Assembly: GCF_020906515.1 (NCBI RefSeq)
Contig: NC_085852.1
Coordinates: 434,001 to 498,000 of the forward strand
DNA: 64,000 bases
Reading direction: 5' to 3'
DNA from: Vanrija pseudolonga
Lineage: Eukaryota > Basidiomycota > Tremellomycetes > Trichosporonales > Trichosporonaceae
The notes beneath the pieces were generated by a model. That model saw only the letters and a list, made by a program, of their open reading frames with translations, was not told where the DNA came from and searched no databases. Below are positions 3,029 through 4,227 of this stretch, in pieces (within the stretch, counting starts at the first letter, position 1; every line of letters starts with the position of its first letter). The position numbers and the translations under genes are program-made.

Positions 3029-4227
3029 CTAGCACGCGCACGACGAAGCCGAGGGGATCTCCTCGGCGGGCGCGGAGACGTCGATCTCTGAGGGGGTGTT
3101 AGCGTGTGGTGCCAACGTGTTTGTGGAGATGGATCGATGTGACGAGGGCTTGAGCATCTCGCTTATGCCAGTGTGCCCGGTAACGCCCCTCATCCGCGTT
3201 TCGTCTGCGAGCTGTTTCGTCGCCAGCGCGCGCTCCACATCGCGCCAGTTCTGCCTGCCGCCTCTCGCCCCGCATCATGCCTGGGTTCCCATTCCCCGCT
3301 CGCGCCGACTCCCACTCACTCTGATTTGCGGCCGCAGCCCCAGCGTCCGCATTGCCACCAGGCAGCGCCAGCGCAATCTTCTTGAACAGCGCCTTGACGT
3401 TGTGCCCGGCCTTTGCGCTCGTCTCAATGCTCATCACGCCGAGCTCCTTGGCCCGCTTGTCGAGGTCCTCGGGAGTCACCTGGCGCTTGTCGTTCAGGTC
3501 GGTCTTGTTGCCGACGAGCACGATGATGACGTCGTCGCCGCGCTCGTTGCGCACGTCGTCGACCCACTTGGTCGTGTTGAGGAAGGATGCGCGGCCTGGT
3601 CGTGTCAGAACCGAGCCAGGAGGTTCGACCCACTCGTAATGTCATAGACAATCACCGCGACTGATGAATCTCGGATGTACGACGGGATGAGGGAACGGAA
3701 GCGTTCCTGCGTGTGAGTCAGTGGGCAGTCCGCGCGCACATGGGCTAGGCTCACTTGTCTGCAGTCGGCAAGGTCAGACGTGGTTAGCTCTCGTGTCCAA
3801 GCCCGCCCGCCGCACAGACGCCCTCACCCAGCTGCAAATGTCAGCTCGGCCTCGCTAGCTCCACGACACGACGACGCACCAGTGTCCCAGAGTTGCAACC
3901 GCACCGTCCGGTCCTCGAGGTACATTGTTTTGGACAGGAAGTCGATGCCTACGATCAGCTGTTGCGTATTGCAGCATACCCACCAATCGTCGCCTGGTAC
4001 GTGTTGTCAAACGTGTCGTACATCTGGGCCGTGTCAGCACGCGTCAAGGCGTCGGCGCGCTAGGGAGGGCACAAGCCCCCGATCAACGCCAGAACACGTA
4101 CAAAGCGCGTGATGAGCGACGTCTTGCCCACGCTCTGCTCGCCGAGGAAGACGAGCTTGAACTTCTTGAGCAGCGACGACGAGGTCGAGCCGCCCGGCGC
4201 CGCGGCGTCTGGTGTAGGTGCGGACAT
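3029..4227 (-). CDS. RYH1: Rab6/Ypt6/Ryh1-type small GTPase
   Basis: Rab GTPase of the Golgi; the family acts in endosome-to-Golgi and intra-Golgi traffic. Exons, in order of transcription, are 4227-4102, 4023-3984, 3948-3880, 3831-3828, 3758-3755, 3706-3634, 3595-3320 and 3087-3029, giving 216 aa. All G motifs are present: [19 protein letters not shown] and ETSAK. The C-terminus is Cys-Ala-Cys, the usual double geranylgeranylation site of this class. The FKLVFLGEQ and [15 protein letters not shown] stretches are diagnostic of Rab6. The residues A-G-Q of switch II are assembled from two consecutive exons of only 4 nt each. The last intron (3088-3319, 232 nt) is much longer than the others and its boundaries are the least certain part. 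The gene is convergent with the upstream transcription factor. Confidence 0.93.
3755..3758 (-). other. 4-nt microexon 2 of the Rab6 gene
   Basis: The bases ACAA (transcript sense) lie between an intron ending ...GACTGCAG and a 48-nt intron beginning GTGAGC. They complete the Gly codon and supply the catalytic Gln (CAA) of DTAGQE. The next exon continues with GAACGCTTC (E-R-F). Without this exon the invariant Gln would be missing. Confidence 0.85.
3828..3831 (-). other. 4-nt microexon 1 of the Rab6 gene
   Basis: The bases CTGG (transcript sense) lie between a 48-nt intron ending ...TTTGCAG and a 69-nt intron beginning GTGAGG. They complete the Ala codon and start the Gly codon of the DTAGQE motif. 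Both flanking introns carry CTGAC or CTAAC branch sites. Reading through instead gives a TGA at once. Confidence 0.85.

Follow-up and report, generated by a model that had tools for sequence, protein, structure and literature searches.

Microexons are known from plants, animals and fungi. The available part of PMC12940212 describes a single-nucleotide exon in CYP621A of Fusarium, and its authors also cite short exons in P450 genes of Phanerochaete. For plants, an extract of PMC8831610 reports that internal exons of at most 15 nt are mostly missing from annotations, and gives an example from rice in which a 5-nt exon and a 12-nt exon are neighbours. Arabidopsis APC11 has a constitutive 1-nt exon, for which the authors find intron definition with successive intron removal plausible (PMC4674806, in extract). 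Inclusion of the Xlr2 microexon of Trichoderma virens depends on glucose, and the same source, in the portion available, treats a length that is a multiple of three as usual, not absolute, in regulated microexon switches (PMC11121469).

Here we describe a Rab6/Ryh1 gene of Vanrija pseudolonga (Trichosporonales, Tremellomycetes) that is predicted to contain two consecutive exons of 4 nt each. The gene lies within the window, by which we mean the whole 64,000-nt stretch of DNA that was analysed; the genome comprises 24.87 Mb in nine contigs, and the part of PMC12820176 available links strain DUCC4014 to assembly GCA_020906515.1. Among the papers listed in searches of the open-licence PMC literature, none described a Rab gene of a fungus with two consecutive 4-nt exons, or the loss of DTAGQE from deposited Tremellomycete Rab6 proteins. 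The function of the gene is ordinary, and its interest lies in its structure and in the annotation problem that it poses; the new part is comparative, and concerns the damage to this motif among the Tremellomycetes.

Structure of the Rab6 gene

The gene is on the minus strand, with its ATG at 4227 and its stop at 3029. The coding sequence of 651 nt is divided among eight exons of 126, 40, 69, 4, 4, 73, 276 and 59 nt, in this order, and encodes 216 amino acids; the 217 codons of the initial annotation agree with this count, which then includes the stop. The parts of the gene are as follows, with the basis of each in parentheses.

4102..4227, minus strand: exon 1, 126 nt, starting with ATG and encoding the P-loop GEQSVGKTS (coding sequence identical to P0001)
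4024..4101, minus strand: intron 1, 78 nt (splice-signal scoring)
3984..4023, minus strand: exon 2, 40 nt (translation of the coding sequence)
3949..3983, minus strand: intron 2, 35 nt, shorter than any other intron here (splice-signal scoring)
3880..3948, minus strand: exon 3, 69 nt, ending with ...WDT and a G, the first base of the Ala codon (path enumeration, coding sequence)
3832..3879, minus strand: intron 3, 48 nt, GTGCGT...TTGCAG, phase 1 in the Ala of AGQ (enumeration, scoring)
3828..3831, minus strand: microexon 1 (exon 4), CTGG, 4 nt (enumeration, shuffles)
3759..3827, minus strand: intron 4, 69 nt, GTGAGG...CTGCAG, phase 2 in the Gly of AGQ (enumeration, scoring)
3755..3758, minus strand: microexon 2 (exon 5), ACAA, 4 nt (enumeration, shuffles)
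3707..3754, minus strand: intron 5, 48 nt, GTGAGC...CGCAG, phase 0 between Gln and Glu (enumeration, scoring)
3634..3706, minus strand: exon 6, 73 nt, beginning GAACGC (translation of the coding sequence)
3596..3633, minus strand: intron 6, 38 nt (splice-signal scoring)
3320..3595, minus strand: exon 7, 276 nt, with the motifs GNKTDL and ETSAKAG (translation of the coding sequence)
3088..3319, minus strand: intron 7, 232 nt (splice-signal scoring)
3029..3087, minus strand: exon 8, 59 nt up to the stop, with the protein C-terminus SSCAC (translation of the coding sequence)

The predicted protein is identical, letter for letter, to the deposited V. pseudolonga protein P0001 (“GTP-binding protein ryh1”), which probably comes from the same assembly and so is not independent of the gene model. 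A model with the full motif is therefore already public. The match to this protein also bears out the Tremellomycete origin assumed in the initial annotation, and the species name is based on it. The assignment to Rab6 made from the sequence at the outset is well founded, because in addition to this identity a PDB sequence search places Rab6/Ypt6 proteins as the first 11 of the 25 listed (E 3.3e-88 to 1.2e-75), followed by Rab-5A at E 6e-44, and the protein has a Ras-family domain (PF00071, E 8.1e-57) in which the G motifs, DTAGQ included, can be read. C-terminal cysteines serve prenylation in Rab6/Ryh1/Ypt6 GTPases, and the SSCAC terminus holds such putative prenylation sites. A Pfam search on ten open reading frames of the window found domains in two, neither of them relevant to the microexons. 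The frame at 61685-63148 has Sec23/Sec24 trunk, beta-sandwich and helical domains, and represents a second secretory-pathway gene within the window.

Splice paths through the catalytic motif

Between ...CTGGGACACTG and GAACGC, the sole enumerated path to the conserved 17-residue product is G/CTGG/ACAA/GAA (slashes mark splice junctions). The enumeration was made with AG acceptors under four settings (GT or GC introns of at least 10 nt or of at least 20 nt; GT, GC or AT introns of at least 20 nt; GT introns of at least 30 nt), each of which yields the identical single path. Among introns with AG acceptors, no further path thus arose when donors other than GT, namely GC and AT, or smaller minimum lengths were admitted. 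When the stretch was shuffled with its flanks fixed and its dinucleotides kept (GT-AG introns of at least 40 nt, up to four), a path giving AGQ was found in 0 of 2000 shuffles. The initial annotation had held that DTAGQE can be built only by using CTGG at 3831-3828 and ACAA at 3758-3755, each flanked by GT...AG introns with CTGAC/CTAAC-type sites; the coordinates prove exact and the enumeration gives this path alone, and CTRAY sites are located before all three acceptors, at distances of 8 nt (intron 3), 24 and 14 nt (intron 4) and 10 nt (intron 5).

Splice sites were scored with a model trained on 135 introns, themselves chosen for GTRNG, CTRAY and YAG, with every GT and every AG in 264 kb of this genome as the reference. 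On this basis introns 3, 4 and 5 have donor percentiles of 98.5, 93.9 and 98.6 and acceptor percentiles of 86.6, 88.6 and 92.1. The donors of the gene’s other four introns range from 95.5 to 99.5 and the acceptors from 64.8 to 99.9, so that the donor of intron 4 is the weakest of the seven; the remaining signals are usual. A CTRAY site lies upstream of all seven acceptors, and six of the seven introns measure 35-78 nt. The seventh, intron 7 (3319-3088), has 232 nt, and both its donor and its acceptor score higher than any other in the gene. At the DNA level, both 4-nt exons are ultra-small internal microexons, in that they are at most 15 nt long, lie between an AG and a GT and are needed to keep the reading frame. 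We regard the use of two tandem 4-nt exons at the catalytic motif of Rab6 as confirmed, with junctions predicted from the DNA and from protein conservation.

Rab6 proteins of related fungi

Relatives were judged from deposited proteins, obtained in three homology searches (the best 120 of thousands of matches from each) that together gave 170 distinct entries. We assign 35 of these to the Tremellomycetes on the basis of the genus in the organism name; the 135 others include metagenome entries of no stated class. DTAGQE is absent from 22 of the 35 Tremellomycete entries vs 1 of the 135 others (Fisher p 1.2e-17, for best matches that are cluster representatives and not independent events). The queries of the second and third searches (P0066 and P0101) themselves lack DTAGQE, which biases the set toward motif-less matches; when only the first search is counted, where the query does contain DTAGQE, absence is found in 12 of 25 Tremellomycetes vs 0 of 95 others among the best 120. 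The 22 motif-less entries carry 18 species names, with C. neoformans accounting for four entries, and DTAGQE is present in the other 13, which as protein entries do not reveal their exon layout. None of the 35 lacks the G1, G4 or G5 motifs (ETSAKAG included), while ATIGIDF is missing in six and another 10-residue motif in five. The damage to this motif in database Rab6 sequences of related fungi, Cryptococcus included, most likely reflects annotation software that misses tiny exons. The sole motif-less entry outside the Tremellomycetes, P0126 (Rhizoctonia solani), has the same form as V. albida, DRT joined directly to ERF, a hint that a microexon may reach into the Agaricomycetes.

In four C. 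neoformans entries (P0101, P0103, P0107, P0124) and one of C. gattii (P0157), a segment LGKLQLSI stands in place of WDTAGQ. More generally, nine of the 22 motif-less entries, with six species names in three lineages, have one of three tripeptides in the aberrant segment:

LGK: C. neoformans, C. gattii, C. bacillisporus and C. tetragattii (Cryptococcus neoformans/gattii group)
LGE: Cutaneotrichosporon spelunceum
PGE: Cutaneotrichosporon sp. HIS471

These are the translations of CTGG/GTAAG, CTGG/GTGAG and CCGG/GTGAG, respectively, that is, of a CNGG exon read on into its own donor. The pattern was defined post hoc, from the entries themselves, and its nine occurrences compare with roughly 1.5 to 4 tripeptides expected by chance over the approximately 906 residues concerned in the 22 entries, given backgrounds of 814/494,199 for 264 kb translated in all six frames and 187/42,443 for the 170 proteins. 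The position of the tripeptide is a stronger argument than its count: all five entries with residues added right behind DRT (P0101, P0103, P0107, P0127 and P0150, from three lineages) begin this addition with the tripeptide.

Further traces come from hidden frames. The C. gattii entry P0157 hides 24 residues, two bases out of frame, that end in LGK; none of 100 shuffles hid more than 7. Hidden frames of 19 (P0158), 19 (P0169), 22 (P0124, C. neoformans), 17 (P0121), 20 (P0127) and 26 residues (P0150) compare with shuffle maxima of 6 to 9; P0101 and P0019, also among the nine entries tested, do no better than shuffles. In the C. gattii group, WDT-G thus lies upstream of CTGG. Two models of C. 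neoformans start LGKLQLSI after other upstream points, and a contiguous WDT-G/CTGG would need introns of about 25 nt in P0101 and about 11 nt in P0124, so that a real intron 3 ahead of CTGG is likely in this species. Taken alone, P0124 could also be read as having W right before GTAAG, a reading that the C. gattii entries contradict. The LGK of Cryptococcus also fits an 8-nt exon, CTGGGCAA, and the hidden-frame reading runs AGQ through CTGGGCAA; for Cutaneotrichosporon an 8-nt exon is impossible, because GGN-GAR has no CAR in the right frame. Microexon 1 is thus probably common to Cryptococcus and the Trichosporonales, and hence old.

For the second microexon, the HIS471 entry P0150 is compatible with GTGAG...CTGAY...GCAG/CCAGGAAC, in which intron 4 measures 63 nt and intron 5 is absent, although 101 of 1000 shuffles also allow YAG/NCAG. 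Intron 5, and with it the predicted tandem pair, is certain only for V. pseudolonga. A separate microexon 2 in P0121 (C. cavernicola) was considered and dropped, as ACTG, YCAR and GAA agree equally well with an acceptor that lies 4 nt ahead of GAA. For the entries of DTxxQ form, an 8-nt shifted acceptor is one reading, and a 4-nt shifted donor suits three of the five equally.

Introns of Rab paralogues

A search of the genome listed 23 matching places, of which eight loci were examined; two are exons of Rab6 itself, leaving six paralogous loci, whose junctions were read by eye. A Rab11-like locus (L005, G000:C5, about 2051455, minus strand; best PDB chains, Rab-11A) has an intron GACACTG/GTAAGT...CCCAG/CTGGACAG at the same position and in the same phase as intron 3 of Rab6. 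The Rab5-like locus L007 (GGACAAG/GTGAGT...CGCAG/AACGC) has one that is 1 nt off intron 5. DTAGQ is whole in L008 and L003, with introns before D and before LW, respectively, and in L002 and L006 WDTAGQ lies within a single exon. The Rab genes of this genome thus often carry introns in or beside LWDTAGQE, and in Rab6 three occur together, which leaves the 4-nt exons.

An origin from introner-type repeated introns was also considered, and is rejected because no second copy came up in the genome at E 0.001 (very common words skipped) and introns 3-5 show no likeness. In that search the 173-nt stretch matched only itself, and introns 3, 4 and 5 are mutually no more alike than shuffles. For two of the gene’s 21 intron pairs, I1-I6 and I5-I7, fewer than 15 of 300 shuffles equalled the observed likeness, which we take as chance.

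Predicted outcomes of mis-splicing

Skipping either microexon 1 or microexon 2 ends the reading frame at codon 98 of 217, and skipping both ends it at codon 100; the frame shift expected initially from the loss of 8 nt is thus correct. With intron 4 retained, translation would end at codon 81; with intron 3 or 5 retained, switch II would gain 16 in-frame residues and there would be no premature stop. The lengths of introns 3, 4 and 5 (48, 69 and 48 nt) are all divisible by three. The exons, of 4 nt each, lack this property, which is usual though not absolute for regulated microexons. A cryptic in-frame event from ACG/GTGCGG to /GAACGC yields 205 amino acids, with 11 residues lost, and the deposited V. 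albida protein has the form and length of this product.

Discussion

We consider it very probable that this is an ordinary Rab6/Ryh1/Ypt6 gene in which three spliceosomal introns cut Ala-Gly-Gln around eight coding nucleotides, leaving two constitutive 4-nt exons. U1 pairing spans about the last three bases of an exon, so that the two sites of a 4-nt exon would not be usable together: U1 and the 3' splice-site machinery could not share 4 nt, and the introns would be removed in turn. Each short intron would be recognised by itself, and the intron-defined splicing proposed in the initial annotation appears a sensible mode for short introns that have 5', branch-like and 3' signals. According to the available part of PMC8624252, recognition of short yeast introns is believed to take place across the intron, and for the 1-nt Arabidopsis exon the authors favour intron definition with stepwise removal (extract of PMC4674806). 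The three introns may have been gained singly, at switch II codon places used by other Rabs of the genome. Microexon 1 (CNGG) would be old and common at least to Cryptococcus and the Trichosporonales, and microexon 2, created by intron 5, may be younger.

One version of this history refines the explanation, and we give it an even chance: of the two microexons just the first is old, while intron 5 was acquired recently in the line of Vanrija and the two exons stand side by side through a local accident. The uninterrupted Gln-Glu junction that P0150 fits speaks for this version, but the back-translation fit is weak, being shared by 101 of 1000 shuffles; similarly, a 4-nt shifted donor followed by NCAR would explain DTGNQ, DTGEQ and DTGDQ (Tremella, Papiliotrema, C. 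amylolentus) with no call for intron 5, but leaves DTGPQ (V. humicola) and DTVFQ (Naganishia liquefaciens) unexplained. That the exons are instead artefacts of a sequencing or assembly error, with AGQ truly in one exon, is scarcely credible, even though a single strain is represented and the identical deposited protein may derive from this assembly too. Exactly the 8 nt needed are framed by three sets of intron signals, the path is reached in 0 of 2000 shuffles, and the same spot is disturbed in 22 of 35 entries of relatives.

The suggestion, made with the first description of the exons, of a possible switch based on the fidelity of splicing is not supported, because skips that end at codons 98-100 would cut the dose of Rab6 and not give an alternative GTPase. 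A regulated switch might still operate through dose, if inclusion were tuned and skipping led to nonsense-mediated decay, so that Rab6 levels tracked splicing fidelity. Every type of skip does shift the frame to an early stop (codon 98, 98 or 100), but so do the skips of constitutive exons under purifying selection, which would likewise show an invariant motif. The stop-free retention of intron 3 or 5, with 16 residues added in switch II, and the weakest donor of the seven at intron 4 are compatible with tuning, and there is a fungal precedent in the Xlr2 microexon of Trichoderma (PMC11121469, in part); set against these are the complete donor, CTRAY and acceptor signals of all three introns. 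On balance we find regulation of this kind very improbable. It is likewise very improbable, in our view, that the old 4-nt exon is a checkpoint, at which slow or condition-dependent splicing sends skipped transcripts to mRNA decay, the fidelity of the spliceosome sets Rab6 output, and the second exon of Vanrija tightens the control; were this true, the exon would have been retained for that role since before Cryptococcus and the Trichosporonales split.

The gene offers a natural and compact test of the spliceosome on two exons that seem too small for both neighbouring sites to be occupied together. Rabs need their switch II residues, and the Rab6 entries of C. neoformans, C. gattii and several relatives are without them, most likely through misannotation, which would mislead cloning, modelling and comparison. 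The case also suggests that clade-specific damage at one invariant motif is a cheap pointer to missed microexons.

The V. pseudolonga protein is an ordinary member of the family to which human Rab6A and Ypt6 of yeast belong (Rab6A chain 3bbp_A aligns across residues 12-212), and is unusual only in its gene structure. In that structure, there is a likeness to CYP621A, as far as the available part of PMC12940212 describes it: both have an ultra-small exon in a conserved motif of a fungal gene, which is hard to annotate and whose omission breaks the frame, but CYP621A has one 1-nt exon in an ascomycete P450, proven by reads, whereas Rab6 has a tandem 4-nt pair in a basidiomycete, known from DNA. 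The small microexons of plants share the tiny internal size, the adjacent pair and the misannotation, and were found by RNA-seq and checked by RT-PCR (PMC8831610, in extract); the Rab6 pair is smaller and lies inside one GTPase motif. APC11 resembles Rab6 in its constitutive tiny exon and differs in that this exon is single and in a plant gene (PMC4674806, in extract), and Xlr2, as presented in the portion of PMC11121469 available, is likewise a fungal microexon, but an alternative, glucose-dependent one.
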